DNA of 64,000 nt from contig JABMOM010000029.1 of NCBI GenBank assembly GCA_013204105.1, positions 1-64,000 on the forward strand. The letters run 5' to 3'. The notes below the pieces were generated by a model. It was not told the DNA's origin, searched no databases, and saw only the letters and a list, made by a program, of their open reading frames with translations. Below are positions 1 to 38,917 of this stretch, piece by piece (the first letter of the stretch is position 1; each line of letters opens with the position of its first letter). A program made the position numbers and the translations under genes. The stretch is from Flavobacteriales bacterium. Its GTDB lineage: Bacteria; Bacteroidota; Bacteroidia; Flavobacteriales_G; Salibacteraceae.

Positions 1-896
1 TTGTTGACGATCTTGGGATCCAAGCCAAAGCTATTCTTGTAATAGGTACCATCGGCATTTTTTAAACACGAAGGCTTTCCATCCGTGATCATAAAGATCT
101 GTCGATTCGGATTTTTTTTCTTTTTCAAAATGTCCAATGCCAACTCCAAACCTGCTACGGTATTGGTATGGAACGGACCTACCTTTAAATAAGGAAGGTC
201 TTTGATGCTCACCTTCCAAGCATCGTTTCCGAAGGCGATGATGTCCAAGGTATCCTTTGGATAGCGTGTGGTGATCAATTCAGCCAAGGCCATGGCAACT
301 TTCTTAGCCGGCGTAATTCGATCCTCTCCATACAAGATCATGGAGTGGCTCAAGTCAATCATCAACACAGTGGATGTCAGTGCTTTGTGCTCAGTCTCTT
401 GGATGACCAAGTCCTCCTCTCGCAATGAAAATTCCTCAATGCCTCGATTGATCTGAGCATTTCGAATGCTGTCCGTAAGAGCAATGCGATCCGTGCGATC
501 ACCGAACTGATACGGGCGAACCTCTGGGATGACCTCATCCCCTTTTCCGAGTTTGGTGGTCTTGTGTCCTCCCCCTTTGCTCTTCTTCATCTTTCCAAAA
601 ACCTGATCCAGCGACCGTTTCCGGATCACTTGTTCAGTTTTGGATGTCATCGCCATTCCATTACCCTTGGCGTCGTCGCTTACAAAGCCTTTGCGCTTAA
701 GCTCTTCAAGAAAATCGTCGATGGTATAGGACTCATCTGTCATCTGGTATTCCTTGTCCAATTCCCTCAACCAATCAATGGCTTCATCTACGTCGCCACT
801 CGTATGGGTAAGCAATTCCATGAAAATATCCAGCAGTTTGTCAAAGGGAGACTTGGCATTTTCGTCTTGAAACTCGGTAAAACTGAATCCTTTCAT
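1..896 (-). CDS. VWA-domain protein, 3' end cut by window edge
   Basis: The frame is open from an ATG at 894-896 (MKGFSFTEFQ...) to base 1, so the C-terminus lies outside the window. The N-terminal 90 residues or so are charged and helical. From about residue 180 there is a von Willebrand factor A fold: the strand VLMIDLSHSM carries the MIDAS motif DxSxS, and MITDGKPS supplies the later MIDAS aspartate. VWA proteins of this kind usually work with a MoxR or magnesium-chelatase type AAA ATPase, but none is visible here; it could lie to the left. No signal peptide, so probably cytoplasmic. The family is sure, the function is not. The next gene upstream starts 38 bases away on the same strand. 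Confidence 0.85.
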   Translation of the reverse strand, partial: MKGFSFTEFQDENAKSPFDKLLDIFMELLTHTSGDVDEAIDWLRELDKEYQMTDESYTIDDFLEELKRKGFVSDDAKGNGMAMTSKTEQVIRKRSLDQVFGKMKKSKGGGHKTTKLGKGDEVIPEVRPYQFGDRTDRIALTDSIRNAQINRGIEEFSLREEDLVIQETEHKALTSTVLMIDLSHSMILYGEDRITPAKKVAMALAELITTRYPKDTLDIIAFGNDAWKVSIKDLPYLKVGPFHTNTVAGLELALDILKKKKNPNRQIFMITDGKPSCLKNADGTYYKNSFGLDPKIVN

Positions 897-8085: not shown

Positions 8086-9207
8086 ATGAAATTCATCGTC
8101 TCCAGCAGTACGCTTTTGAAGCAACTCACTTCCATCAGTGGAGTACTCAACACGAGCAGCAACCTCCCTATCTTGGGCTTCTTCCTCTTCGATGTTCGTG
8201 ATAAAAAGCTCACGGTGTCAGGGTCGGATCTGGAATCTACCATGGTCGCCGAAATCAATTTAGAGAAGGCTGATGATGACACAAAGGTTTGCGTTCCCGC
8301 AAAGCTGCTCTTGGATATGCTCAAGACCTTCTCTGATCAGCCGTTGACTTTTTCTGTGGACGAAAAGAACTTTGGCATTGAGGTAGCTTCTGATGCTGGA
8401 AAGTACAAGCTTGCTGGAGCCAGTGGTGATGAATTTCCTCGCCTCCCAGAAATGGACGCAGCGTCCAAAATGAAGATCGATAGTGGCATTTTGTTCAACG
8501 CGATCAACAAGACCGTTTTTGCCACGGGCAACGACGAACTTCGTCCTGTGATGAGCGGCGTATTCTTCGCCTTGGAAAAAGACGGTGTCACCTTCGTAGC
8601 TACAGATGCACACAAGTTGGTTAAATACCATAGAACTGACTGCAAATCAGGAAAGTCTGCGAGTTTCATCATGCCGAAAAAACCATTGAATCTTTTGAAG
8701 TCGCTGATGTCAAACCTCTCCACAGATGTTGAAATCGAGTACAATGAGACTAATGCCGCGTTCGTGTTTGAGAACTACAAGCTTGTGAGTCGTTTGATCG
8801 ACGGGAAATACCCAAATTACGATGCGGTAATCCCAAAAGAGAATCCCAATGAGATGACCATTGACCGAGTAGTTTTCCTCAACAGTGTGCGTCGCGTTTC
8901 TATCTTTTCCAATAAGACAACGCATCAAGTGCGCTTGAGCATCAAAGGCAGTGAGCTTCAAGTTTCCGCTGAGGACCTTGATTACAGCAACGAAGCTATC
9001 GAGCGACTCAATTGCAATTACAATGGCGAAGACCTTGTGATTGGATTCAACAGCCGTTTCTTGATCGAAATGCTCAATAACCTTGAGTCCGACGAAATCA
9101 GGCTCTTGATGAGCGCACCGAATCGCGCAGGACTCCTCTCTCCTACTGAGAAAGATGATGCCGAAGACATCGTGATGCTGGTCATGCCGGTAATGCTCAG
9201 TCAATAA
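8086..9207 (+). CDS. dnaN: DNA polymerase III sliding clamp, beta subunit
   Basis: The ring-shaped processivity clamp of the replicative polymerase. The 373-residue length and three repeated clamp domains are normal. Typical phrases include LPILGFFLFD and SGSDLESTM in domain 1, and the C-terminus ending in VMPVMLS, which forms part of the pocket that binds clamp-interacting peptides. Its own promoter lies in the gap upstream. The GH16 gene starts 30 bases downstream, so some cotranscription is possible although the products are unrelated. The replicative polymerase dnaE is in the same window at 51.8 kb. Confidence 0.96.
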   Translation: MKFIVSSSTLLKQLTSISGVLNTSSNLPILGFFLFDVRDKKLTVSGSDLESTMVAEINLEKADDDTKVCVPAKLLLDMLKTFSDQPLTFSVDEKNFGIEVASDAGKYKLAGASGDEFPRLPEMDAASKMKIDSGILFNAINKTVFATGNDELRPVMSGVFFALEKDGVTFVATDAHKLVKYHRTDCKSGKSASFIMPKKPLNLLKSLMSNLSTDVEIEYNETNAAFVFENYKLVSRLIDGKYPNYDAVIPKENPNEMTIDRVVFLNSVRRVSIFSNKTTHQVRLSIKGSELQVSAEDLDYSNEAIERLNCNYNGEDLVIGFNSRFLIEMLNNLESDEIRLLMSAPNRAGLLSPTEKDDAEDIVMLVMPVMLSQ

Positions 9208-9237
9208 GCTACGGTCGCTTTTCGTACCTTCCATCCC

Positions 9238-10497
9238 ATGTTGGATCGGGTCCTTCACCTTCGTTTTACACTCTTTTTTTTATGTGCGCTAGCTGCACCT
9301 TTTGTGCGCGCCCAAGATTGTGTTGGAGGACAGATTTACAGTCAAGAAGCCTATCTCTATGGTCGGTTTGAAGTAGCCATGCGTTCCGCTGGTGTAAGTG
9401 GAGTTATCTCCTCCTTTTTTCTCTACAACCTTGATTTAGGGTGTAATTGGCCAGCGGAGAACAATGAAATCGATATAGAGATGACAGGAAACAGCGAAGA
9501 CGTCCTGTTCACTACGCACTATCCGGGCCCATGGTACATAACGGATACTTACTCTCCACCCTTTAATCCGCATGACAGCTTGCACCACTACGCCATCGAA
9601 TGGGAACCAGGCATCGTTCGGTGGTTCGTGGATGGCGCCTTGGTCAATACCCAAGATCACAGCACCATCGATGAATTGATCTACCCTATGCGGATTATGA
9701 TGAACCTTTGGGCCGTGGACAATGAAGCCTGGGCAGGACCATGGGACACCGCAAGCATGCCCCTTACCTCCCTGTACGATTACGTAAAGTGTTATACCTA
9801 TGCTCCAGGCACAGGGGATTACGGCACCAACGACAATTTCAAACTAGACTGGGAGGAATCTTTCGACGCATTGAACGAACAACGGTGGACAGTGGAGCAA
9901 TTTGGAGGTTTCGGAGGGAACTTCTGTTCTTTCGAATCCACTTCAGTTGTGATCGATAGCGGCATGATGACGCTCCGCATTGAAGCTCCCCAAGCACATG
10001 CGCAAGTGCAGACCAGTTTTTCTGTGGATACGCGCGCTGAGTCTCTTGGAGCAAGCGATGTGATCTTCTTGAATGGAAGCTTCAACGATTGGTGCGGGTC
10101 TTGTCAACCGATGCAGGAACAGGACGGCATTTGGACCACCTCGGTTGACTTAGATCCCGGGAAATACGAATACCTTTTTACTAAGAATATCTGGGAAGAG
10201 AATGGCAGCGCACCTTACCAAAGCGAGTGCGATTACAATCCTTGCGATGAATGGTTGAACTACGGAGTGCTGGTTCCTGTTGGCGCTGCCCCTATAGATT
10301 TGGAAACGGTCTGCTGGAGAGAATGCTTTGCGTGTGCCCCACTCTCAACTCGGTTTCTTCCCATTCAAAACAAAAAGGAAATTCTAGCTATCTACGACCT
10401 GATGGGGCGGTCCGTTGGTCCTACTTCAAGTGGCATGCTCATCTATCGTTATGACGACGGGTCCTTCGAAAAAAAGTTGGCAATCCCCATCGATTGA
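9238..10497 (+). CDS. secreted GH16 glucanase, circularly permuted, with glycan-binding-like domain
   Basis: Signal peptide at residues 1-25. GH16 part one (about 28-190) runs from GGQIYSQEA and GRFEVAMRSA through the catalytic EIDIE (E77 nucleophile, E81 acid/base) to MNLWAVDNEAWAG. The strands that normally come first in GH16 (LDWEESFDALNEQRW ... MMTLRIE, about 203-249) follow after it. This is the domain order of the Fibrobacter succinogenes 1,3-1,4-beta-glucanase, so lichenase-type activity on mixed-linkage beta-glucan is the best guess. Next comes an E-set/AMPK-like carbohydrate-binding module (FLNGSFNDWCGSC..., about 270-350), then a short degenerate T9SS-like tail (LAIYDLMGRSVG ... GMLIYRYDDG). 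Probably exported and surface-bound or released. No sugar-transport genes lie next to it. Confidence 0.88.
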   Translation: MLDRVLHLRFTLFFLCALAAPFVRAQDCVGGQIYSQEAYLYGRFEVAMRSAGVSGVISSFFLYNLDLGCNWPAENNEIDIEMTGNSEDVLFTTHYPGPWYITDTYSPPFNPHDSLHHYAIEWEPGIVRWFVDGALVNTQDHSTIDELIYPMRIMMNLWAVDNEAWAGPWDTASMPLTSLYDYVKCYTYAPGTGDYGTNDNFKLDWEESFDALNEQRWTVEQFGGFGGNFCSFESTSVVIDSGMMTLRIEAPQAHAQVQTSFSVDTRAESLGASDVIFLNGSFNDWCGSCQPMQEQDGIWTTSVDLDPGKYEYLFTKNIWEENGSAPYQSECDYNPCDEWLNYGVLVPVGAAPIDLETVCWRECFACAPLSTRFLPIQNKKEILAIYDLMGRSVGPTSSGMLIYRYDDGSFEKKLAIPID

Positions 10498-10561
10498 TTT
10501 ATGAAGCGGTGATGGACGTTTTGCAACGTTGAAAACCCCGGCCTTGGCTTTCCCATATGTT

Positions 10562-11224
10562 TCAGTCCTCACCGTCTGACTTAGGCCGATAGGAATACTT
10601 GATGCGGTAAGGCTTTCGCTGCTCCACGGTGTCATCACTCAGTTCTTCAAAGGGAATGGTCTCCTCCCATGCATCTTCCAACTCCTCTTCCAACTCCCAG
10701 CTGTACTTCGGGCGCTGCGGTCCTTCATCGCGGTAATAGAACGCCAGAATAACCCCCGCTAAAGCACCAAATAAGTGTCCTTCCCAAGAAATACCAGGTT
10801 GAATGGGCAATACACCCCAAACCATGGAGCCATAGAGGAATACTACAACGAGGGAAAGCGACATGAGTCTGAAATGCTTTCGGAAAACACCAGAGAAGAA
10901 AATGAAGGCAGCCAAGGCATAAATCACACCACTGAATCCGATATGGTTCCCATTTCTCGCTGCAATCCACATCCACACCCCACTCATGATCCAGCTCCAC
11001 AAGATGACGGGACGCGCCAATTTTCCATAGAAACTAAACAGTCCCAGCAGCAGCACAAATGCGGTAATGCTGTTATCGGTTATATGCTTCCAGTCCGCAT
11101 GGAGCAACGGATAGGTGAAAATACCAACAAGACCGTGCGCCGTCCTAGGCGCCAATCCCAAGTCCCGCAAATCAAAGGCAATCAATGCGTCTAACCCGAA
11201 GACCAACCACAGTGATCCGACCAA
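10562..11224 (-). CDS. rhomboid family intramembrane serine protease
   Basis: About six transmembrane helices. The rhomboid signatures are all present: HxxxxHxxxN (H42, H47, N51), the nucleophile in GFSG (S98) and the catalytic histidine in EGHLFGALAG (H150). A polar, acidic C-terminal tail of about 50 residues rich in Glu and Tyr follows. The substrate is unknown. The given start is a TTG; the frame is open further up to a stop near 11286 without any ATG, so a non-ATG start is needed and a few more N-terminal residues (YSLYSTIL) may belong to the first helix. The 3' end faces the GH16 gene. Confidence 0.9.
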   Translation of the reverse strand: MVGSLWLVFGLDALIAFDLRDLGLAPRTAHGLVGIFTYPLLHADWKHITDNSITAFVLLLGLFSFYGKLARPVILWSWIMSGVWMWIAARNGNHIGFSGVIYALAAFIFFSGVFRKHFRLMSLSLVVVFLYGSMVWGVLPIQPGISWEGHLFGALAGVILAFYYRDEGPQRPKYSWELEEELEDAWEETIPFEELSDDTVEQRKPYRIKYSYRPKSDGED

Positions 11225-25993: not shown

Positions 25994-28900
25994 ATGGCAC
26001 GACTTCTACGCTACGCTATTGCCGCTGTTCTTTTCACCCTTGGATCCATCTTTAATGGTGCGTTCGCACAGTGTGACTCGACCTATTCAAACTTCCAGAT
26101 AGAGGAAATCTGGGAACAACAGACCTTCACACTGTGGAATAATGTGTCTGGCAATGACTACGATTGGATCATCAATTCTGGAGGCACCCCGACCAACAAC
26201 TCTGGCCCTTCAGCTGCTTATGGTGGATCCTATTACATCTACACTGAGACCTCCGGGACAGGAACCAATGAGGTAGGCATCATGGAATCCGAGTGCTTGG
26301 CATTTCCTACGAACAGTGCTCCTTACCTTTCATTCAGGTTGCACATGTACGAGAACGTGTCGGCAACCACAGCGCAGTCCATGGGCTACTTACAAGTACA
26401 AGTAAACACCAATCCGAGCGGAAACAGCTGGTCTACACTTGCAACCTACAATACAAGTTCAAATTCTTGGTTAGAAAAATTTGTTGACCTCTCGGCATAT
26501 GCCGGCTCCACCATAAAACTCAGGTTTAGAGCAGTTACAGGAACCCAAGGTGGCTTCAATCAATGGTATGCATACGGTGACAGGGCCTTGGACAACATCG
26601 TTGTTTCTACCGGCGTCAACACTACAAACGTCAGCTGCTCAGGCGGATCCAATGGTTCCGCAATAGCCGTAGGCGCCTTCAATGGTGTAGGAAGCACACT
26701 TTACACCTACCTATGGAGCACTGGAGGGACTACTCAATCCATTACTGGCTTATCTGCCGGCAGCTACGTATGCACCATCACCGACACCAGCTCCAACTCT
26801 GAAGTGGTATCCTTTAGCATTACAGAACCTACGCTTCCTTCACCTCAAAACCTTTCCGCCACATCTACTTCTATCTGTGAAACTGAGAATGAAGTGGTGA
26901 CCCTGAGCATCGATTTCGCTTCAGGCGATTACACGTATTCCACCCTGACAGGGGACTCTTCGGATTTAGGTAGTCAGAACACCGCAGGCACATCCCAAAT
27001 TTTCAACATTTTCGACGCCCCTCCCTTTGCCACTGGGGACGCTACCCTCACCATGTATTACCGCGGTGATATGGAAGCTGCCGCTGAATACGTTACCACT
27101 TACTCGGAGTACGGAACCTCGTTGGGTGCATCAACTGCTGCGAGCGGTCAATGCAGCGGCTCCTATAATTCGGTAAGTTTCACCATCGATCCGGATTCAA
27201 TCAATGATTGGGCTAGTGATGGTGTTATTTCCCTTGAAGGAATTCCAACCGGCATGACGCGTTATTGTAACGCCGGTAGTGGAAACTACTTTTCATGGAA
27301 TGCCTATTACACTTTATCATATCCCGTCGCTCAAAGCACCCCTTACTGGTTTACGAACAGTTGCGACAGTGTGATCTCTAATGCGGTCGACTCAGGATAT
27401 ACCGTCAACGTTACCCCTACGACTACAACCACGTACTATGTTCGCTTTTACGATGCAGGGTGCAGCCAATGGGGTACTTGTGATTCCGTTACCGTCACGG
27501 TGAATGGTCCTCCCTCTGTATCCATTTCACCTACCTCCCCTTACTACTGTGGAATACCTATTTCCATCACAGCGAGTGGAGCCTCATTCTACTCTTGGTC
27601 TCCCGGAACAGGCCTAAACCAAACTTCAGGACCAACCGTCATTGCAAGCCCATCTGTAACCTCCTCCTATGAGGTTGTTGGTATCGATGGGAATGGATGT
27701 ACCGACACGGCCGCATTCAGCGTAACCGTCACAACCGGGCCTAGCGCAAGCGTTACGGGTACGAATGTCTCCTGTAATGGCGGGTCAAACGGAACGGCTT
27801 CGGTTACCGCATCAGGTGGCACGAGTGCATATACCTACCTATGGTCCAATGGAAGCACAGCTACCTCATTATCAGGGTTGTCTGCAGGGACGTATACGGT
27901 GACCGTCGATGATGGCACCACTTGTAACGCGGTTCAATCCATTGTCATCACCGAACCCAACGCGATAAGCATCACTATTGCGGGAAACAACATCGGGTGT
28001 TCTGGATTCTCAACCGGTAGTGCCTTTGCCCTTGTCACAGGAGGTACTGCTTCCTACTCCTATTCTTGGAGCAACGGATCAACGAGCAACGTTGCCTTTG
28101 CTTTGGCGGCCGGAACCTATACCTTAACCGTCACCGACGCGAACAGCTGTACAGCAACACAATCGGTTACCATCACCCAACCTTCCAGTGCGCTCAGCTC
28201 GAGCATTTCGTCGACGACAAATGTCAGCTGCAACGGCGGCAATGACGGATCTGCAACCGTAACCGCGAGCGGCGGAACACCATCCTACGGTTATGCTTGG
28301 AGTTCTGGAGCGACCACAGCGACTGCCTCTAACCTTAGCGCAGGAACATACATCGTTACCGTATCCGATGCGAACGGCTGCATATCTGTAGGAGTAGCAA
28401 CCATCACCCAACCGGCAACTGCAGTTAGTGTTTCGATTGGAAGCCCCACGAATGTCACATGTAACGGTGGTAGTAATGGCAGCGCTACAGCTTCCGGCTC
28501 AGGTGGAACAGGAACCATTACCTACGCTTGGTCTTCAGGATCGACTTCTGCTACGGCGAGTAGCTTGAGTGCAGGCACCTACACGGTAACAGCTACTGAC
28601 GCCAACGGCTGCGCCGATACGGAAAGTGTAACCATCACAGAACCTACTGCAGTTACAGCAAGTCTTTCCGTCACCAATGTGCTCTGTAACGGAGGTAACA
28701 ACGGGTCCATCACGGCCACCGGATCAGGTGGAAACGGCGGTGCCTATAGCTACGTATGGAGCACTGGCGGTACTTCTGGAACAGTCTCTGGATTGTCTGC
28801 AGGAACCTACACTGTAACCATTACCGACAACGCTGGGTGTACTGGCACAGAAAGTACCACCATCACCGAACCAAGTGTTCTGATCGCTTCCACTACCCTC

Positions 28901-31900
28901 GGAAACAACGTCAGTTGCAACGGTGGCAACAATGGCTCTGCAACAGCTTCAGCGAGCGGTGGAACAACATCCTACGCTTACAATTGGTCCTCTGGATCAA
29001 CCTCAGCAACGGCCTCTTCCCTTTCGGCGGGTACCTATACGGTGACCGTAACCGACGCGAACGGTTGCACTGATACAGAAACCATCATCATCACGGAACC
29101 AGCTACGGCTGTGTCTGCTTCTATTGGGTCGCCTACGAATGTCAGCTGCAACGGAGGCAATGACGGCGCTGCAACGGCATCAGGCTCCGGAGGAACTCCG
29201 GGATATTCTTACAGTTGGTCTTCCGGTGCAACCTCGGCTGCGGCATCTTCGCTATCTGCGGGGACGTACACAGTTACGGTTACAGACGCCAACGGTTGTA
29301 CAGATACCGAGACCGTGATCATCACCGAGCCCGCAACTGCGGTAACCGCTTCGATCTCGTTGGGTAGCAACGTCAGTTGTAATGGAGGCAGCAATGGATC
29401 TGCTACTGCTTCCGCCACAGGCGGCACAGCGGGTTACTCTTATAGCTGGTCATCTGGATCCAGCACCGCTTCCGTCTCTGGTCTCGCTGCAGGAACGTAT
29501 ACCGTTACTGTCACAGATGCAAACGGTTGTACAGATGCCGAAACCATCACCATTACCGAGCCTTCCGCACTGATTGCATCCACTACCTTGGGTAGTAACG
29601 TCAGTTGTAACGGAGGAAATAACGGTTCCGCTTCAGCTTCGGCATCCGGTGGAACGCCTGGGTATTCTTACGCTTGGTCTTCTGGGTCTACGGTTGCTTC
29701 TGCATCCAGTCTATCTGCTGGCACTTATACCGTGACAATCACAGACGCCAATGGATGTACCGATACAGAGACGATCACCATTACGGAGCCTTCCGTTTTA
29801 GTGGCATCTACAACACTGGGTAACAATGTGAGTTGCAACGGTGGCAACGATGGTTCAGCCACCGCTTCTGCATCTGGCGGAACGTCTACCTACTCTTATA
29901 GCTGGTCTTCAGGATCGACTGCAGCAATAGCCTCTTCCCTTTCGGCCGGGACGTATACCGTGACCGTCACAGACGCAAATGGTTGTAGCGATACCGAAAC
30001 CATCACCATTACTGAACCTGCTACTGCCGTAACGGCCTCCATAGGATCACCTACCAACGTGAGCTGCAATGGTGGTAATGATGGGTCTGCGACAGCTTCA
30101 GGCGCAGGCGGAACGCCAGGATATTCGTACAGCTGGTCTTCCGGCGCCACCGCAGCCACAGCTACGTCACTAACTGCCGGCACGTATACAGTGACCGTAA
30201 CTGACGCGAACGGCTGTACAGACACCGAGACCGTAACCATTACCGAACCCGCAACTTCCGTCACAGCCTCCATAGGATCTCCAACCAACGTAAGTTGCAA
30301 TGGAGGAAACAATGGATCCGCAACCGCATCTGGTTCAGGCGGCACACCTGGCTATTCTTATAACTGGTCTTCAGGCGCAACGACGGCAACCGCTTCATCA
30401 CTCACAGCAGGCACATTCACGGTTACAGTTACGGATGCCAACGGATGTACCGATACAGAAACGGTAACCATTACACAGCCCAGTGTTCTAGTCGCTTCAA
30501 CAACTTTGGGCAGCAATGCAAGTTGTAATGGCGGCAACGACGGTTCCGCAACTGCTTCCGCATCTGGCGGAACCTCACCTTATGGCTACAGCTGGTCTTC
30601 TGGATCAACCGCTGCTTCTGCAACCGGTCTATCTGCTGGCACATATACGGTAACGGTAACCGATGCGAATGGCTGTGACGATACAGAGACGATCACCATC
30701 ACCGAGCCTGCCGTGCTGGTAGCATCTATAACACTCGGCAGCAACGTGAGCTGCAACGGAGGCAACGATGGTTCTGCCACCGCTTCTGCCGCTGGCGGAA
30801 CATCCCCGTACTCTTACAGCTGGTCTTCAGGATCAACTGCAGCTAGCGCGTCTTCGCTTTCGGCTGGAGCTTATACAGTTACCATTACCGACGCGAACGG
30901 ATGTACCGACACCGAGACCATCACCATCACTGAGCCAAGTACGGGCGTTACCGCTTCGATCGGATCACCTACAAATGTGAGCTGCAACGGCGGCAACGAC
31001 GGTTCTGCAACGGCTTCTGGCTCTGGCGGAACGCCTGGCTACTCCTACAGTTGGTCTTCAGGCGCAACTACTGCAGCGGCTTCTAGCCTCTCTGCCGGAA
31101 CTTATACGGTCACCGTAACAGACGCGAACGGTTGTGCTGATACCGAGACCGTAACCATTACAGAGCCAGCAACGAGTGTCACAGCTTCAATAGGATCACC
31201 TACCAACGTAAGTTGCAATGGTGGTAGCGACGGAGCGGCCACTGCTTCCGGGTCTGGCGGAACGCCGGGTTACTCCTACAACTGGTCTTCAGGCGCAACT
31301 ACAGCAACAGCTTCGTCACTGGCTGCAGGAACGTACACCGTGACCGTGACCGATGCCAACGGATGTACCGATACTGAAACCGTAACCATCACCCAACCTA
31401 GTATCTTGGTTGCCTCGACCACTTTAGGTAGCAACACGAGTTGCAATGGTGCCAATGATGGTTCTGCTTCGGCTTCTGCTTCAGGAGGAACCCCTGGTTA
31501 TTCTTACAACTGGTCTTCAGGATCAACTTCCTCTTCAGCTACAAGTCTCTCGGCTGGTACATATACCGTGACCGTTACGGATGCTAACGGATGCACCGAC
31601 ACAGAAACAATAACAATTACTGAACCTGTTGTATTAGTAGCTTCTACAACACTTGGCAGCAACGTTAGCTGCAACGGTGGCAACGATGGGTCCGCTACTG
31701 CTTCAGCATCTGGCGGAACGTCTCCATTCGGTTATAGCTGGTCTTCTGGGTCAACCACAGCAGGCGCTTCATCACTTTCGGCAGGCACTTACACGGTGAC
31801 CGTGACCGACGCAAATGGCTGCACTGACACGGAAACCATCACGATCACCGAGCCCGCCACAGGAGTTTCCGCTTCGATTGGATCGCCTACCAATGTGAGC

Positions 31901-34900
31901 TGCAATGGTGGTAGCGATGGTTCAGCCACTGCCTCTGGTACTGGTGGAACTTCCCCCTATTCCTACAGTTGGTCTTCGGGGTCCACTTCAGCGACGGCAT
32001 CGAGTCTTTCGGCGGGTATGTATACTGTGACCGTAACCGACGCGAACGGTTGCACGGATACCGAGACTGTAACGATTACCGAACCTGCAACCGCTGTTTC
32101 GGCTTCTATCGCCCTAGGCAGTAACGTCAGTTGCAACGGAGGCAGTGACGGATCTGCCACAGCCTCAGGTACTGGTGGAACACCTGGTTATACCTACAGT
32201 TGGTCATCTGGAGCAACTTCTGCAACAGCTGCAACTCTTTCCGCTGGAACATATACAGTGACAGTAACAGATGCCAACGGTTGTACAGACACGGAAAACA
32301 TCACCATCACAGAACCAAGTGTATTGATCGCCGCAACAACTTTGGGCAACAATGTCAGTTGTAACGGTGGCAATGATGGTTCAGCAAGTGCTTCTGCTTC
32401 AGGAGGTACTTCACCTTACAGCTACAGTTGGTCTTCCGGCTCGACCACGTCATCGGCCACTAGTCTTTCAGCAGGAACCTACACGGTGACTGTAACAGAT
32501 GCGAATGGTTGCACCGACATAGAAACCATTACCATTACCGAGCCTGCTGTATTAGTGGCATCGACAACACTTGGAAGCAACGTGAGCTGCAACGGCGGCA
32601 ACGACGGTTCGGCGAATGCTTCTGCCGCTGGCGGGACATCACCTTACTCCTACTCATGGTCTTCTGGATCGACCTCAGCAAATGCCACCTCTCTTTCCGC
32701 TGGAACCTACACGGTGACAGTCACTGATGCGAATGGCTGCACCGATACGGAAACCATCACCATTACAGAGCCAGCCATTCTTGTCGCTGCAATCGACTCT
32801 TCATCAAATATCTCGTGTTTTGGATTATTCGATGGGGTTGCGTACAGCAGTGCGACAGGAGGCACCTCACCTTACAGCTTCGCATGGAGTTCAGGTGCAT
32901 CTACTTCCACCGCATCAGGCCTTGGCGCAGGGACCTTTACAGTCACCGTGACCGATGCAAACGGATGTACCGATACGGAAAGCGTTACTATCTCCCAACC
33001 TACCCTCTTGGTTGCTTCAGCGAGCGTAGACAATAATGTGTCTTGCAACGGTGGCAACGATGGGCAAGCCACAGCCTCTGGGTCTGGAGGCACTCCTGGG
33101 TATAGCTATTCTTGGTCCTCTGGTGCTACGACCTCGGTCGCTTCAAATCTTTCTGCTGGCAACTACACGGTAACGATTACGGATCTGAGTGGGTGCAGTG
33201 ATACCGCAAGTGTGACCATCTCAGAGCCAACGCTGCTTGTCGCCTCAACTGCCCTTGGCAACAATGTGAGCTGCAATGGTGGTAACAATGGATCTGCAAC
33301 TGCTTCTGTCGTTGGAGGAACTTCACCTTATTCCTACAGCTGGTCTTCAGGGTCAACTTCCACTTCTGCTACAGGTCTTTCCGCTGGAACCTATACGGTA
33401 ACCATCACGGATGCCAATGGATGTACCGACACGAGCAACATTACGATAACGGAGCCTACGCTTCTTATGGCGACCGGATCAGGTGTGAATGTAAGCTGCA
33501 ATGGTGCGGCAGATGGGCAAGCATCGGTTGCTGCCTCTGGCGGCACTTCACCTTATACCTATCTCTGGTCTACCGGATCAACGGTAAGTTCCGCGACGAA
33601 TTTAGGCCCTGGAACCTATGGCGTTACTGTGACCGATGCCAACGGATGCACCGCGACCGCGTCTGTTGCCATTACTCAACCCACCGTGCTCATAGCAAGC
33701 ATTGCTCTTGACAGTAACGTTAGCTGCAATGGTGGAAACGATGGTTCGGCAACTGCATCAGCTGCTGGAGGTACTTCTGGGTACACATACGCATGGTCAT
33801 CTGGTGCTTCAAGCTCGACGGCTTCCTCCCTTGCCGCGGGCACCTATACCGTGACCATAACGGATGCAAATGGATGCACGGATACGGAAACGATTACCAT
33901 CACGGAGCCGACACAACTCTCAACCACCAGCGCTGTGGTCAACAATGTGACTTGCTACGCTGGGACAAACGGAAACGCCAGTATAAGCGCTTCGGGTGCT
34001 ACATCTCCGTACAGCTACGCTTGGTCATCAGGAGCAACAACGACGAATGCTACAAACCTTGCTGCGGGGACTTACTATGTTACCGTAACCGACGCAATGG
34101 GCTGCGAGGCCATCGACAGTGTATCGGTCACCGAGCCTGACACATTGATCGCAACAGCGAGTATGGTAAATGGTGTGAACTGCAACGGCGGCAACGATGG
34201 GTCTGTTTCTGTTTCGACAACAGGCGGTACGACCGCTTATGGCATCCTCTGGTCAACGGGTTCTACCTCCACGACCGTTACAGGATTATCGGCAGGAACG
34301 TATACAGTAACCGTCACGGACGCCAATGGCTGTTCAGACACTTCATCCGCAGTTGTCACTCAACCAGACAGTCTCCTAGCCAGCATTTCGCTGGGAAGCA
34401 ATGTGAGTTGCAACGGTGGAAACGACGGTTCGGCAACGGCCTCTGCAACTGGAGGTACTTCCGCTTATTCATTCTTATGGTCAACCGCAGCTACAAGTGC
34501 ATCAATCAGTGGATTGACAGCAGGTACCTACACGGTAACCGTTACCGATGCAAACAACTGTACAAACGTTACTTCCCTTGTGATCACTGAACCTGCCTCG
34601 CTTGCCGCTAGTGCAGTGTCTGTGAACAATGTGCTTTGCAGTGGCCAAAGTTCAGGAACGGTTGCAGGATCTGCCTTGGGCGGCACAAATCCATATTCAT
34701 TCTTATGGAGTACTTCGGATACTACAGATACGGTTTCTGGACTCGTGGCTGGTACCTATACTTTGACGATTACTGATGCCAATGGGTGCACCGACACGGC
34801 ATCGGCGACGATCATCGAGCCATCTGCGGTAAGCGCCCAAGCGATTTGGATCATGGACGCTGCATGTAATGGCAGCTCTACGGGATCTGCCTATGCTGCG

Positions 34901-37900
34901 GCCACCGGAGGAACCACCCCCTACTCTTACGCGTGGGCAACGGGAAGCACGAATGATTCGATCTTTAACCTTTCGGCCGGTACGTACACTGTGACGATTA
35001 CCGATGCCAATGGCTGTTCCGACTCGGATACGGTTTCGATCATGGAACCTGCCGCACTCACCTTGAACTTTGCCTTGGTAGATCCTTTGTGCAATGGGTC
35101 GAACGACGGTTCGATAGCCTCAATTGTTACGGGGGGAACAACACCCTACAACTACTCATGGTCAACTTCTGCAACAAGCGCTAGTCTCTCGGGACTGAGC
35201 GCTGGTTCGTATACGCTCACTGTCACCGATGCCAATGGATGTACAACGGCGCTCAACGGTCAGTTGAACAATCCAACTTCTGTCGTCGCGAGTATTACTT
35301 CTCAGAATAATTCCTGCTTCGGTGATTCAACAGGATTAGCTGTTGCAAGTGGTTCTGGTGGAGCTGGCAATTTCAGTTTCACTTGGAGCACTGGATCAAC
35401 GAATGACAGCATTGAGAATGCAGTGGCAGGAACGTACACCGTTACCGTCACTGACAGCAATGGTTGCTTCGACGCGGCCTCCGTCACATTGACGCAGCCT
35501 ACTGCTCTGGCAGCATCGATCTCATTCATAGACAGCGTTGCCTGTTTCGGTGATTCATCCGGCTTGGCAGTTGCAGCTGCTACTGGAGGTACATCTCCTT
35601 ATTCTTACAGCTGGCCAGCCTCTTGGACAAGTAGCAATGACTCCATATTGAATGTACCTGTGGGAGTGTATACCGTCACCATAACAGACGACAATGGCTG
35701 TATTGATACCGCGGTTGCCGTAATCGATCAATACCCGGCCTTGGTTTTGACGATTGATTCTTCGCAAGATGTAACTTGTTTCAACGGAATGGATGGATAT
35801 GCATCTGTCCTAGCTTCTGGTGGTGCGGGTGGATATACTTATGCTTGGCCAAACGGTTCAACATCAGCGGCCAATGATTCCTTGAGTGGAGGTGAACACT
35901 GTGTGACAGTTACAGACGCAAACGGATGTTCGGATACCGCTTGTGTGGATCTATCGGAGTTGAATCCGTTGCCGCTCGTCAACATTGGAAATGACACCGC
36001 GATTTGCGACACATTGTTCACCCTGGATGCTGGAAGTGCTGTTGGCTATAGCTGGAGTACCGGCGCAACGTCCCAGACCATCCAAATCGATTCAACCGAC
36101 GATTACGCTGTTACCATTACAAACGCCATCGGATGTCAGAACAGCGACACCATATCGGTGACCTTCAATCCATTGATTTCCTTTGATATTGTTACCGATA
36201 GTACAAGTTGCGGCGGATCCACAGGTGCCGCCTTGGTAACCAACCTCACAGGTGGCGGCGGTTACACACTTCTTTGGAGTAGTGGACAACTGAACACGCT
36301 CAACGTTAGCTCACTCACCTATGGAGCATACAGCGTGACCGTAAACGACGCGAATGACTGTTCGGCGGAACAATCGTTCTTTATCTATGACGATACCGAT
36401 CTCTCCTTTGACTTGTTCGGTACGGACGCAAGTTGCTTTGGATTTTCTGACGGTTCCGCTTGGGCTGAAGTTACTTCAGGAACTGGACCTTATACGTTCG
36501 ACTGGTCGAATGGTGCAGTGAATGACACGATCGTGAATATCCCCGCCAACACTTATGTGCTTACGGTTACGGATAGTGCTGGATGTATTCTGGAAGATTC
36601 GATTGTGATCGATCAACCTGAAAACGTACTGCTTTCTGTTGTGAGCACCGACGCGACCTGCGGCGACTCAAATGGAGTTGCCGTTGTGAATGTACTTCCT
36701 AGCGCCAACTATTCTTTTGCTTGGAATGATCCATTTGCACAAACCACAGACACTGCTTCTAACTTGTCTGCTAGCACTTACCAAGTGATTGTAACGGCTA
36801 GTAATGGATGTCAGGATTCGGCTTTCGCCATTGTGAGCAATGATGGGGCACCTTCGCTAGCCATGGCTGCCATGAACGAATCTTGTGAGGGAAGTGGCGA
36901 TGGTTACGCAGCGGTTTCGGCCTCAAGCCTCTCTCCCCTTACCTATCTCTGGAGTGATGCTTTAGGACAAACAACGGATACAGCCTTTAATATTGGATCT
37001 GGCTTGTATTTCGTCTCTGTGACTGACACGAGTGGATGCATTGCAATCGACAGTATTTCAGTGGGTGCCGATGGATTAAACCCTGTCTTTACACTTGGCA
37101 ACGACACAAGCGTGTGCGGCAGCTCCATCACCTTATACGCTCCAATGGGTATGTCTTCATACACCTGGAGCACAGGAGCAACGAGCGACTCAATTGTTGT
37201 TACTGCAACAGGTCAATACTGGGTGAATGTGACGAATGCCTCGGGATGTTCGAGTTCCGACTCCATCCAGGTCGACCTCTACAATGCAATCACATATACT
37301 TCTGCCATCAATAATTCCAGTTGTTCGCAGAATACTGGATCCATTGACATTACCATCACTGCTGGCAATGGAGGTTATACGTTCCTTTGGAATACGGGTG
37401 ACACCACCGCACTTATAACAGGACTCGGTAGCGGTACCTACGACGTAACCATAGCAGACAGCGCTGGATGCTCAATAGAAGCATCCTTCAACGTAGACAA
37501 CATCAACGCTCCTGCCGTGTCGGTAGACGTTACTGACGCGAATTGTAACGCTGCAGCGAGTGGATCTGCCATAGCTACGGTAACGAATGGAACCGCCCCA
37601 TTCTCTTATGCTTGGAGCAATGGAGGAAACGGAACCAATCAAAGTGGATTGCTGGCTGGGAATTACGACTTAACCGTGACGGACGACAGTGGTTGCGTTG
37701 TCACCGTTCCTTTCGACGTATTAGAGCCAACGGCCATTACCATATCGATCTCAGGAATTCAGCCTGATTGTGGAGACTCCAACGGAAGTGCGTTGGCTCT
37801 GGTTACGAATACCCAAGGGCCAGTAGTGAATTATCTATGGAATGATTCCGCCGCCACCCCCTTGCCTTTCGTGAACAACCTCCCTGCTGGCTACTACACG

Positions 37901-38917
37901 GTATCGATTACAGATTCTGCCGGCTGTATGGCTTCAGAGAGTATCGCCTTGAGCAATTTAGGCGCCGCATCCCTGGCTACCTTCAGTACGACAAACAATT
38001 GCTCAAACGAAAACGTCGCCTACGCATATGTAGATGCCATCGGAAGCGGTCCGTTTACGTATGCTTGGAATGATGATCTGTCACAACAGAATGACACAGC
38101 TTTCAACCTGTACAATGGCACGTACGCCATTTCAGTGACGGATACCAATGGTTGCATTGCCGTCAGCACAATAGAGGTAACTTCCATATTTACCGCACCT
38201 TCTATTAGCCTGGGCAACAACGTTACAAGCTGCATTGGCGATGGGGTGATCCTCACGCCTGGAAATGGCTTCATCACGTACTTATGGAGCACGGGGTCTA
38301 CTTCACCTTCTATTACGGTAACCACTGGTCAATCCTATTCCGTAACTGTAAGTAACACCGTAGGATGCGCTGCGTACGATACCGTGCTTGTAAACTTTGT
38401 TGCTATTCCAGTTATTGATCTAGGAAACGACACGATTGTTTGTGTGGATGACATTGTTCCCGTGGTGACCTTGGATGCCGGTGAAGGATTCAACGACTAT
38501 CTATGGTCAACCAACGACACTACGCAGACGATTGATGTATTCAGTGGAGGTCTCTACAAAGTGAGTGTAAGCGACGTACCTGGCTGCGTAGGAAGCGATC
38601 AAGTAATCGTTGCATACGACACATGCATCAATGTGACCACTGAAGATCTGGCCAAAGGCGCCAGCGCATCCTTGCGCATTTACCCGAATCCGAACAGAGG
38701 AAGGTTTGTAATCGAAATGAATCATTTTGAAGCTGACAACTACGAAGTTCATGTAATGAATGCCGCGGGCCAACATGTATTCATGACAACGGTACGCACA
38801 GGTAGCAATGGCGTTTCCATCGCCGAGATAGACTTGTCTGAGACGCCGAGAGGCATCTATCTGATGACGGTTAAGGGTTCGGGAATACGGATGGATCAAC
38901 GCGTGATCATTCAATAA
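25994..38917 (+). CDS. giant SprB-repeat surface protein with T9SS sorting domain
   Basis: 4307 residues. Signal peptide 1-25 (ending GAFAQ); a MAM/jelly-roll-like domain (about 30-205); one SprB-type module; PKD/Ig-like domains (about 290-585); then a long array of SprB repeats of about 76 residues, about 45 recognisable modules in all and the most regular between residues 589 and about 3320. Each has a core like NVSCNGGNDGSATAS, then GGTPGYSYSWSSG, GTYTVTVTDANGC and ITEP, with one Cys near each end. The last third is more diverged and mixed with Ig-like parts (GNDTAICDTLFTLDAGS). It ends in a T9SS type A tail (LRIYPNPNRG ... RMDQRVIIQ). In F. johnsoniae, SprB is a cell-surface gliding adhesin; this protein is a good candidate for a similar adhesin, but SprB repeats also occur in other surface proteins. 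Confidence 0.93.
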   Translation: MARLLRYAIAAVLFTLGSIFNGAFAQCDSTYSNFQIEEIWEQQTFTLWNNVSGNDYDWIINSGGTPTNNSGPSAAYGGSYYIYTETSGTGTNEVGIMESECLAFPTNSAPYLSFRLHMYENVSATTAQSMGYLQVQVNTNPSGNSWSTLATYNTSSNSWLEKFVDLSAYAGSTIKLRFRAVTGTQGGFNQWYAYGDRALDNIVVSTGVNTTNVSCSGGSNGSAIAVGAFNGVGSTLYTYLWSTGGTTQSITGLSAGSYVCTITDTSSNSEVVSFSITEPTLPSPQNLSATSTSICETENEVVTLSIDFASGDYTYSTLTGDSSDLGSQNTAGTSQIFNIFDAPPFATGDATLTMYYRGDMEAAAEYVTTYSEYGTSLGASTAASGQCSGSYNSVSFTIDPDSINDWASDGVISLEGIPTGMTRYCNAGSGNYFSWNAYYTLSYPVAQSTPYWFTNSCDSVISNAVDSGYTVNVTPTTTTTYYVRFYDAGCSQWGTCDSVTVTVNGPPSVSISPTSPYYCGIPISITASGASFYSWSPGTGLNQTSGPTVIASPSVTSSYEVVGIDGNGCTDTAAFSVTVTTGPSASVTGTNVSCNGGSNGTASVTASGGTSAYTYLWSNGSTATSLSGLSAGTYTVTVDDGTTCNAVQSIVITEPNAISITIAGNNIGCSGFSTGSAFALVTGGTASYSYSWSNGSTSNVAFALAAGTYTLTVTDANSCTATQSVTITQPSSALSSSISSTTNVSCNGGNDGSATVTASGGTPSYGYAWSSGATTATASNLSAGTYIVTVSDANGCISVGVATITQPATAVSVSIGSPTNVTCNGGSNGSATASGSGGTGTITYAWSSGSTSATASSLSAGTYTVTATDANGCADTESVTITEPTAVTASLSVTNVLCNGGNNGSITATGSGGNGGAYSYVWSTGGTSGTVSGLSAGTYTVTITDNAGCTGTESTTITEPSVLIASTTLGNNVSCNGGNNGSATASASGGTTSYAYNWSSGSTSATASSLSAGTYTVTVTDANGCTDTETIIITEPATAVSASIGSPTNVSCNGGNDGAATASGSGGTPGYSYSWSSGATSAAASSLSAGTYTVTVTDANGCTDTETVIITEPATAVTASISLGSNVSCNGGSNGSATASATGGTAGYSYSWSSGSSTASVSGLAAGTYTVTVTDANGCTDAETITITEPSALIASTTLGSNVSCNGGNNGSASASASGGTPGYSYAWSSGSTVASASSLSAGTYTVTITDANGCTDTETITITEPSVLVASTTLGNNVSCNGGNDGSATASASGGTSTYSYSWSSGSTAAIASSLSAGTYTVTVTDANGCSDTETITITEPATAVTASIGSPTNVSCNGGNDGSATASGAGGTPGYSYSWSSGATAATATSLTAGTYTVTVTDANGCTDTETVTITEPATSVTASIGSPTNVSCNGGNNGSATASGSGGTPGYSYNWSSGATTATASSLTAGTFTVTVTDANGCTDTETVTITQPSVLVASTTLGSNASCNGGNDGSATASASGGTSPYGYSWSSGSTAASATGLSAGTYTVTVTDANGCDDTETITITEPAVLVASITLGSNVSCNGGNDGSATASAAGGTSPYSYSWSSGSTAASASSLSAGAYTVTITDANGCTDTETITITEPSTGVTASIGSPTNVSCNGGNDGSATASGSGGTPGYSYSWSSGATTAAASSLSAGTYTVTVTDANGCADTETVTITEPATSVTASIGSPTNVSCNGGSDGAATASGSGGTPGYSYNWSSGATTATASSLAAGTYTVTVTDANGCTDTETVTITQPSILVASTTLGSNTSCNGANDGSASASASGGTPGYSYNWSSGSTSSSATSLSAGTYTVTVTDANGCTDTETITITEPVVLVASTTLGSNVSCNGGNDGSATASASGGTSPFGYSWSSGSTTAGASSLSAGTYTVTVTDANGCTDTETITITEPATGVSASIGSPTNVSCNGGSDGSATASGTGGTSPYSYSWSSGSTSATASSLSAGMYTVTVTDANGCTDTETVTITEPATAVSASIALGSNVSCNGGSDGSATASGTGGTPGYTYSWSSGATSATAATLSAGTYTVTVTDANGCTDTENITITEPSVLIAATTLGNNVSCNGGNDGSASASASGGTSPYSYSWSSGSTTSSATSLSAGTYTVTVTDANGCTDIETITITEPAVLVASTTLGSNVSCNGGNDGSANASAAGGTSPYSYSWSSGSTSANATSLSAGTYTVTVTDANGCTDTETITITEPAILVAAIDSSSNISCFGLFDGVAYSSATGGTSPYSFAWSSGASTSTASGLGAGTFTVTVTDANGCTDTESVTISQPTLLVASASVDNNVSCNGGNDGQATASGSGGTPGYSYSWSSGATTSVASNLSAGNYTVTITDLSGCSDTASVTISEPTLLVASTALGNNVSCNGGNNGSATASVVGGTSPYSYSWSSGSTSTSATGLSAGTYTVTITDANGCTDTSNITITEPTLLMATGSGVNVSCNGAADGQASVAASGGTSPYTYLWSTGSTVSSATNLGPGTYGVTVTDANGCTATASVAITQPTVLIASIALDSNVSCNGGNDGSATASAAGGTSGYTYAWSSGASSSTASSLAAGTYTVTITDANGCTDTETITITEPTQLSTTSAVVNNVTCYAGTNGNASISASGATSPYSYAWSSGATTTNATNLAAGTYYVTVTDAMGCEAIDSVSVTEPDTLIATASMVNGVNCNGGNDGSVSVSTTGGTTAYGILWSTGSTSTTVTGLSAGTYTVTVTDANGCSDTSSAVVTQPDSLLASISLGSNVSCNGGNDGSATASATGGTSAYSFLWSTAATSASISGLTAGTYTVTVTDANNCTNVTSLVITEPASLAASAVSVNNVLCSGQSSGTVAGSALGGTNPYSFLWSTSDTTDTVSGLVAGTYTLTITDANGCTDTASATIIEPSAVSAQAIWIMDAACNGSSTGSAYAAATGGTTPYSYAWATGSTNDSIFNLSAGTYTVTITDANGCSDSDTVSIMEPAALTLNFALVDPLCNGSNDGSIASIVTGGTTPYNYSWSTSATSASLSGLSAGSYTLTVTDANGCTTALNGQLNNPTSVVASITSQNNSCFGDSTGLAVASGSGGAGNFSFTWSTGSTNDSIENAVAGTYTVTVTDSNGCFDAASVTLTQPTALAASISFIDSVACFGDSSGLAVAAATGGTSPYSYSWPASWTSSNDSILNVPVGVYTVTITDDNGCIDTAVAVIDQYPALVLTIDSSQDVTCFNGMDGYASVLASGGAGGYTYAWPNGSTSAANDSLSGGEHCVTVTDANGCSDTACVDLSELNPLPLVNIGNDTAICDTLFTLDAGSAVGYSWSTGATSQTIQIDSTDDYAVTITNAIGCQNSDTISVTFNPLISFDIVTDSTSCGGSTGAALVTNLTGGGGYTLLWSSGQLNTLNVSSLTYGAYSVTVNDANDCSAEQSFFIYDDTDLSFDLFGTDASCFGFSDGSAWAEVTSGTGPYTFDWSNGAVNDTIVNIPANTYVLTVTDSAGCILEDSIVIDQPENVLLSVVSTDATCGDSNGVAVVNVLPSANYSFAWNDPFAQTTDTASNLSASTYQVIVTASNGCQDSAFAIVSNDGAPSLAMAAMNESCEGSGDGYAAVSASSLSPLTYLWSDALGQTTDTAFNIGSGLYFVSVTDTSGCIAIDSISVGADGLNPVFTLGNDTSVCGSSITLYAPMGMSSYTWSTGATSDSIVVTATGQYWVNVTNASGCSSSDSIQVDLYNAITYTSAINNSSCSQNTGSIDITITAGNGGYTFLWNTGDTTALITGLGSGTYDVTIADSAGCSIEASFNVDNINAPAVSVDVTDANCNAAASGSAIATVTNGTAPFSYAWSNGGNGTNQSGLLAGNYDLTVTDDSGCVVTVPFDVLEPTAITISISGIQPDCGDSNGSALALVTNTQGPVVNYLWNDSAATPLPFVNNLPAGYYTVSITDSAGCMASESIALSNLGAASLATFSTTNNCSNENVAYAYVDAIGSGPFTYAWNDDLSQQNDTAFNLYNGTYAISVTDTNGCIAVSTIEVTSIFTAPSISLGNNVTSCIGDGVILTPGNGFITYLWSTGSTSPSITVTTGQSYSVTVSNTVGCAAYDTVLVNFVAIPVIDLGNDTIVCVDDIVPVVTLDAGEGFNDYLWSTNDTTQTIDVFSGGLYKVSVSDVPGCVGSDQVIVAYDTCINVTTEDLAKGASASLRIYPNPNRGRFVIEMNHFEADNYEVHVMNAAGQHVFMTTVRTGSNGVSIAEIDLSETPRGIYLMTVKGSGIRMDQRVIIQ
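29102..32773 (+). repeat. four tandem 918-bp blocks inside the giant gene
   Basis: Sixteen repeat modules (residues 1037-2260) fall into four blocks starting at 29102, 30020, 30938 and 31856, each exactly 918 bp (306 residues). Every block has the order A-A-B-B. A modules (77 residues) begin like ATAVTASIGSPTNVSC; B modules (76 residues) begin like SVLVASTTLGSNVSC. The second A of blocks 1 and 4 is a variant (ASISLGSN, ASIALGSN). In blocks 2 and 3 the second A module ends in TITQP instead of TITEP. Confidence 0.9.

Follow-up and report, generated by a model that had tools for sequence, protein, structure and literature searches.

The closest described system is the glucanase of Fibrobacter succinogenes (FsGlu), reportedly the subject of a study by Tsai in 2003 and already known as a natural circular permutant of the GH16 fold. 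PMC2395249 counts "some bacterial beta-glucanases" as natural permutants, and the reference list of PMC4176579 contains, by title, a further permuted glucanase; the main text of the GH16 subfamily paper (PMC6827312) contains neither "permut" nor "Fibrobacter". Within the literature covered by our search, to which most subscription papers did not belong, we found no paper on permuted GH16 enzymes beyond F. succinogenes, and their spread may have been published. It is this spread that we regard as new. The gene described here lies in a 64,000-nucleotide stretch of contig JABMOM010000029.1 from a Flavobacteriales bacterium (the window), and its features are collected in Table 1.

The preliminary description of this gene had proposed a permuted GH16 enzyme with the catalytic half first and a junction resembling that of the F. 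succinogenes enzyme. When the window protein was compared with the PDB by phmmer, a single unbroken match was obtained over residues 24-248 to FsGlu (best entry 3axd, E 2e-33; further entries 1mve, 1zm1, and 3h0o); matches to lichenases of ordinary order, 1byh among them, covered residues 27-185 only. A structural model of the protein (26 input sequences; mean pLDDT 80.5, with the catalytic domain mostly above 90) superposed on FsGlu 1zm1 over 226 residues (25..253 on 4..233; Z 33.7, 1.6 Å) and on the ordinary Bacillus subtilis lichenase 3o5s over 159 residues (23..188 on 82..242; Z 18.9). Segment 1 corresponds to the C-terminal part of an ordinary GH16 and segment 2 to the strands that open one; in the model, segment 2 forms strands at residues 201-207, 217-219, 230-232, 237-240, and 243-249, and residues 203-249 complete the sandwich, as had been anticipated. 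A full first set of GH16 strands was looked for ahead of residue 28, and only a signal-peptide-like stretch was found there. The protein scored 89.6 bits against PF00722 (GH16; cut-off 22), its EIDIE sequence at residues 77-81 conforms to the catalytic EXDX(X)E pattern of the family, and its catalytic segment stands ahead of the usual first strands, the order of the FsGlu type of natural permutant. The cut sites are the same as in FsGlu and the linker is alike in letters. The window protein is thus confirmed as a GH16 protein of permuted order, probably secreted, and the proposals on fold and junction both held.

Table 1. Features of the permuted GH16 gene and its product, in window coordinates.
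Feature	Residues	Coordinates	Strand	Basis
Permuted GH16 gene, stop codon included	419 aa	9238..10497	+	ORF; PDB match to FsGlu 24-248
N-terminal hydrophobic stretch, likely signal peptide	1-26	9238..9315	+	Sequence; model helix 2-18
Catalytic domain segment 1	28-188	9319..9801	+	Pfam GH16 29-165; FsGlu/lichenase alignments
Catalytic EIDIE	77-81	9466..9480	+	Invariant in all permuted rows tallied
Linker joining old ends, APGTGDYGTNDN	189-200	9802..9837	+	Position and similar letters in relatives
Segment 2	201-250	9838..9987	+	Model strands, superposed on FsGlu
AMPK/CBM48-like E-set domain	∼257-370	10006..10347	+	AMPK1_CBM in 6/6 clade members
C-terminal tail, putative T9SS-like	372-419	10351..10494	+	Partial profile match, probability 76%

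When relatives were compared with a profile built from the permuted core, permuted ORFs aligned as a single block (about 2-222) and ordinary GH16 ORFs as two blocks of swapped order (172-220, then 2-161). A fixed order rule classed 129 ORFs as permuted and 36 as ordinary, with repeated fetches of one gene counted; 111 distinct permuted cores were obtained, FsGlu included. Sixteen further ORFs with a profile hit, mostly truncated or with the second piece missing or very weak, fitted neither order rule and were left uncounted. The junction and cut site were common to 37 aligned relatives.

The permuted form had initially been called unusual, a judgment overturned by searches of genome samples, which included no Fibrobacterota genome. 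Within the order of the window genome, 5 of 42 genomes gave a match, all five spanning nearly the whole core; within its class, 18 of 395 genomes matched, 9 of them contiguously (from a listing read by eye), and the remaining matches covered the shared segment only, as an ordinary GH16 would. In the window's phylum, which in the genome set used also contains Ignavibacteria contigs, 63 of 395 genomes matched and 36 held contiguous permuted copies, 33 of these genomes lying outside the window's class. Matches were found in 44 of 149 genomes of the phylum of a Neomarinimicrobiota (Marinimicrobia) genome, G757 (54 of 55 places contiguous), and in 18 of 40 genomes of the phylum of a Calditrichaceae genome, G756 (17 contiguous, 1 partial). 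In a collection of 84,980 genomes with at least 364 relatives (at least 594 stretches), a permuted ORF is present at each of the 80 best loci; these are labeled Ignavibacteriota (27), Fidelibacterota (Marinimicrobia records; 17), Bacteroidota (14), Calditrichota (8), Chlorobiota (1), Myxococcota (1), or carry no phylum (12). A plasmid search yielded 67 records, in none of which did a single place span 80% of the permuted core. The permuted GH16 form is widespread over several bacterial phyla. With an ordinary lichenase as query, 36 of 390 genomes of the window's phylum matched at 1e-20 and four of these (G606, G650, G709, and G750) hold the ordinary-order form; the other places matched the shared segment only, as permuted copies do. 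The ordinary form was present in 4 genomes (390 sampled) and the permuted form in 36 (395 sampled) of one phylum, and the permuted order may be the usual lichenase-type form there. In G650, a single contig carries both forms, with about 8 kb between them.

Several loci were observed that stand apart from these counts. The Myxococcota label belongs to a permuted GH16 in a metagenome-assembled genome titled Deltaproteobacteria (L065), which either is mislabeled or lies beyond the phyla in which the form is usually found. Two permuted GH16 genes occur within the fetched stretch at each of L115 and L134, and several genomes of the G757 phylum have two permuted genes close together. In G757 itself, a GH16 gene (L156/L157, G757:C158) is interrupted by in-frame stops and is apparently a broken copy.

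For phylogenetic analysis, the permuted segments were first rearranged into the ordinary order and four trees were constructed. For tree 1 (91 rows), thinning by identity reduced the 111 distinct permuted cores to 60, of which tree 2 (47 rows) used 32; the ordinary rows in both were mostly laminarinase-type or very divergent, with few lichenase rows. Both trees set the laminarinase-type rows apart from the lichenase-type and permuted rows, and in both the permuted rows stayed divided, with the window clade apart from the others; a single permuted clade was not rejected by the tree 2 data (p 0.295). The long-branch rows canon_L165 and canon_L168, along with canon_L159 and some laminarinase rows, were left out after tree 2. 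In tree 3 (42 rows), four ordinary enzymes from the same phylum were added together with four GH16_21 lichenases, and five permuted rows were left out; its 27 permuted rows formed a single clade, supported at 96/90 and present in 98% of bootstrap trees, that was sister to GH16_21 (100/98) and not inside the four GH16_21 rows. Tree 4 (44 rows, without laminarinases) kept these additions, restored the full set of 32 permuted rows from tree 2, and again gave one clade (100/96). The nearest relatives of FsGlu in tree 3 were two proteins (L012 and L015; 100/99) from other families of the window's class. The window clade was firm (100/100) on a long stem (0.99 in tree 3), its joining with the FsGlu clade was not rejected (p 0.146), and its placement within the permuted family is tentative. 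The preliminary description had left a choice between shared ancestry and transfer between phyla. Because the permuted rows form a single clade once adequate lichenase outgroups are included, the data favor one permutation and shared ancestry, as in trees 3 and 4, and a transfer from Fibrobacter would not be needed. In a separate analysis, the C-terminal G-Y-x-G/D tail found in many relatives was considered as a relic of a permutation by tandem duplication, in the form of a second copy of the N-terminal Y-x-G-A-E strand; this was not supported when 109 tails were scored against shuffles (11 with p ≤ 0.05; median 0.69).

Residues E77, D79, and E81 of the window protein, to which we assign the catalytic roles by assumption, align with E56, D58, and E60 of FsGlu (with a presumed offset in FsGlu numbering); they are invariant in the permuted rows tallied, as are FsGlu N139 and W148. 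The cleft has been altered elsewhere. FsGlu N44, W54, Q70, N72, K200, and W203, which we take to be substrate contacts together with the other cleft residues listed here, are replaced by L, N, L, T, V, and F, respectively, with N75, L90, T92, and F222 standing at W54, Q70, N72, and W203; FsGlu N139, W141, and W148 are kept. In the main permuted group, W occupies position 54 in 92 of 97 rows and N occupies position 72 in 86 of 97. The W54 difference is uncertain, as W71 of the window protein lines up with the W54 column in a MAFFT alignment that introduces a four-residue insert. Judged by W54, Q70, N72, and W203 of FsGlu, the window protein departs from the FsGlu-type cleft pattern of a lichenase (EC 3.2.1.73). 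In view of these changes and of the AMPK/CBM48-like domain, lichenan, the substrate first envisaged, may not be that of the window sub-clade.

The E-set-type domain that had been suspected downstream of the catalytic domain was recovered with the AMPK1_CBM profile in all six proteins of the window clade (best 8e-7), the window protein alone scoring 23.8 bits against a curated cut-off of 26.8; the E-set region of the model is of low confidence in parts. W285, W319, and N341 of this domain are invariant in the six proteins and presumably correspond to glycogen-contact residues of AMPK beta. The suggestion of a T9SS-like tail fared less evenly: when the tail was compared by profile with true T9SS tails, a partial match over 23 columns was obtained (probability 76%), the window ORF was absent from the 107 Por_Secre_tail matches of its genome, and the tail is a putative T9SS signal. 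The C-terminal parts of other permuted relatives include Malectin (L083 and L033) and a T9SS tail (L033 and L053); L127 gave no further Pfam match. Elsewhere in the window, a 4307-aa ORF (25994-38917, + strand) has a Por_Secre_tail match at its end.

Around the window gene are dnaN, gldF/gldG-like, and rhomboid-like genes (named by eye), and no glucan-use genes are among these neighbors. We compared the site (window coordinates 8086-11224), bounded by dnaN and the rhomboid-like gene, in 13 genomes of the genus. Four of them carry the gene there (G000, G027, G018, and G019), and the site is empty in seven (G017, G020, G021, G022, G024, G026, and G028), where the flanks are ∼50 to 170 bases apart, too close to hold the gene; G023 (contig edge) and G025 (no match) were not classed. 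The site is therefore one of single-gene presence or absence, at which gain and loss are indistinguishable. The neighbors of permuted relatives, scanned at six loci (17 proteins), include GH3, GH5, GH9, PorV, MFS, and SSF proteins, and a second, ordinary GH16 ORF was present within the fetched stretch at 16 of the best 80 loci (a 17th, L125, was discounted for a match of 7.6 bits). These neighbors agree with a use of beta-glucan. In the window's own genome, locus L193 (G000:C31:17000-29000) contains SusC/SusD-like genes (names assigned by eye), an ordinary GH16 gene, and, adjoining the latter, a gene whose 617-aa product carries three AMPK/CBM48-like domains as well as a Por_Secre_tail; this cluster appears laminarin-locus-like.

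We consider it quite probable that the window gene encodes a putative secreted endo-beta-glucanase belonging to a GH16 family whose circular permutation took place a single time, beside the lineage of the GH16_21 lichenases. This explanation draws on the unbroken alignment with FsGlu and the fuller superposition on it than on the ordinary lichenase (Z 33.7 over 226 residues versus 18.9 over 159), the junction and cut site shared over 37 relatives with an invariant catalytic E, D, and E, the permuted clade (96/90 and 100/96) that is sister to GH16_21, the GH3, GH5, GH9, and ordinary GH16 genes adjoining relatives, and the threefold occurrence of the window-type E-set domain beside an ordinary GH16 gene in the same genome. 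Weighing against it are the lack of glucan-use neighbors at the window gene, the differing cleft positions, the failure of trees 1 and 2 to unite the permuted rows, and the long stem of the window clade. In this family, the chain is opened at the loop that separates the strand ending LxLxLT from that beginning YxGAE, and a short TPGxG-type linker connects the old ends, giving, according to the alignment and model, the same beta-sandwich and cleft; its members now occur in Bacteroidota, Ignavibacteria, Calditrichota, Marinimicrobia, and Fibrobacter. Conservation and known GH16 chemistry point to cleavage by the retaining EXDXE mechanism, the AMPK/CBM48-like module of the window sub-clade probably holds a polysaccharide, and the changed cleft may direct this sub-clade to a beta-glucan possibly other than lichenan.

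Alternative origins were considered. The window lineage might have been permuted independently of FsGlu, the shared cut site then reflecting a break-tolerant loop; the separation of its clade in trees 1 and 2, its stem of 0.99, and the superposition over 28..251 of the engineered lichenases 1cpm and 1cpn, which indicates that the place tolerates a break, are all in keeping with such an event, but sequence similarity extends over the linker and the two ends, and the permuted rows form one clade once close ordinary lichenases are included, and we regard it as unlikely. A recent arrival of the permuted gene from Fibrobacter or a close relative appears very improbable, given that the identity to FsGlu is only ∼30%, that the nearest relatives of the window gene are in its own genus and family, and that FsGlu itself clusters with proteins from elsewhere in the window's class (100/99), even though FsGlu is the best PDB match and the grouping of the two clades was not rejected. 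An assembly or gene-calling artefact is refuted by the open frame and by the same order in six clade proteins of different genomes and in the 111 distinct permuted cores, leaving this reading a negligible probability.

The nature of the substrate is a closer matter. That the permuted scaffold was re-tuned into a beta-1,3-glucanase or other non-lichenase glucanase is a plausible reading toward which we nevertheless do not lean: the exchange of FsGlu W54, Q70, N72, and W203 for N, L, T, and F and the recurrence of the same E-set domain in a protein encoded beside a laminarinase-type GH16 gene argue for it, and the retention of N139, W141, and W148 and the possible replacement of W54 by W71 argue against it.

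Regarding the history of the permuted GH16 family as a whole, we lean slightly toward an early, single natural permutation of a lichenase-type enzyme in the Bacteroidota/Ignavibacteria/Calditrichota/Marinimicrobia/Fibrobacter group, the product of which became its usual lichenase-type GH16. If this is correct, FsGlu would represent just one of many tips, and the window branch would have split off, re-tuned its cleft, and acquired a CBM48-like module. Natural permutants of apparently single origin, with a living sister group of ordinary order, would lend themselves to experiments on the cost or gain of permutation, with folding, stability, and specificity comparable between the two forms within one phylum. 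Local profile matches conceal the order of the fold, and Pfam labels the window protein simply as GH16.

Compared with the known systems, the window protein is like FsGlu (1mve, 1zm1, and 3axd) in its permuted order, cut sites, linker, catalytic EXDXE, and fold, but the two share ∼30% identity and differ at several cleft positions; the E-set domain is that of the window protein, the C-terminal part of FsGlu being outside the comparison. The GH16_21 lichenases (3wvj, 1gbg, 3o5s, and 3i4i) have the EXDXE motif and form the sister group of the permuted clade, but their segments are in the ordinary order. The Bacillus lichenase permutants 1cpm and 1cpn superpose on the window model with a Z of 31 and, unlike the window protein, are engineered rather than natural. 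Finally, the E-set domain of the six clade members matches the profile of AMPK1_CBM/CBM48 domains, with the window protein alone falling below the curated cut-off, and here it is attached to a GH16 enzyme.
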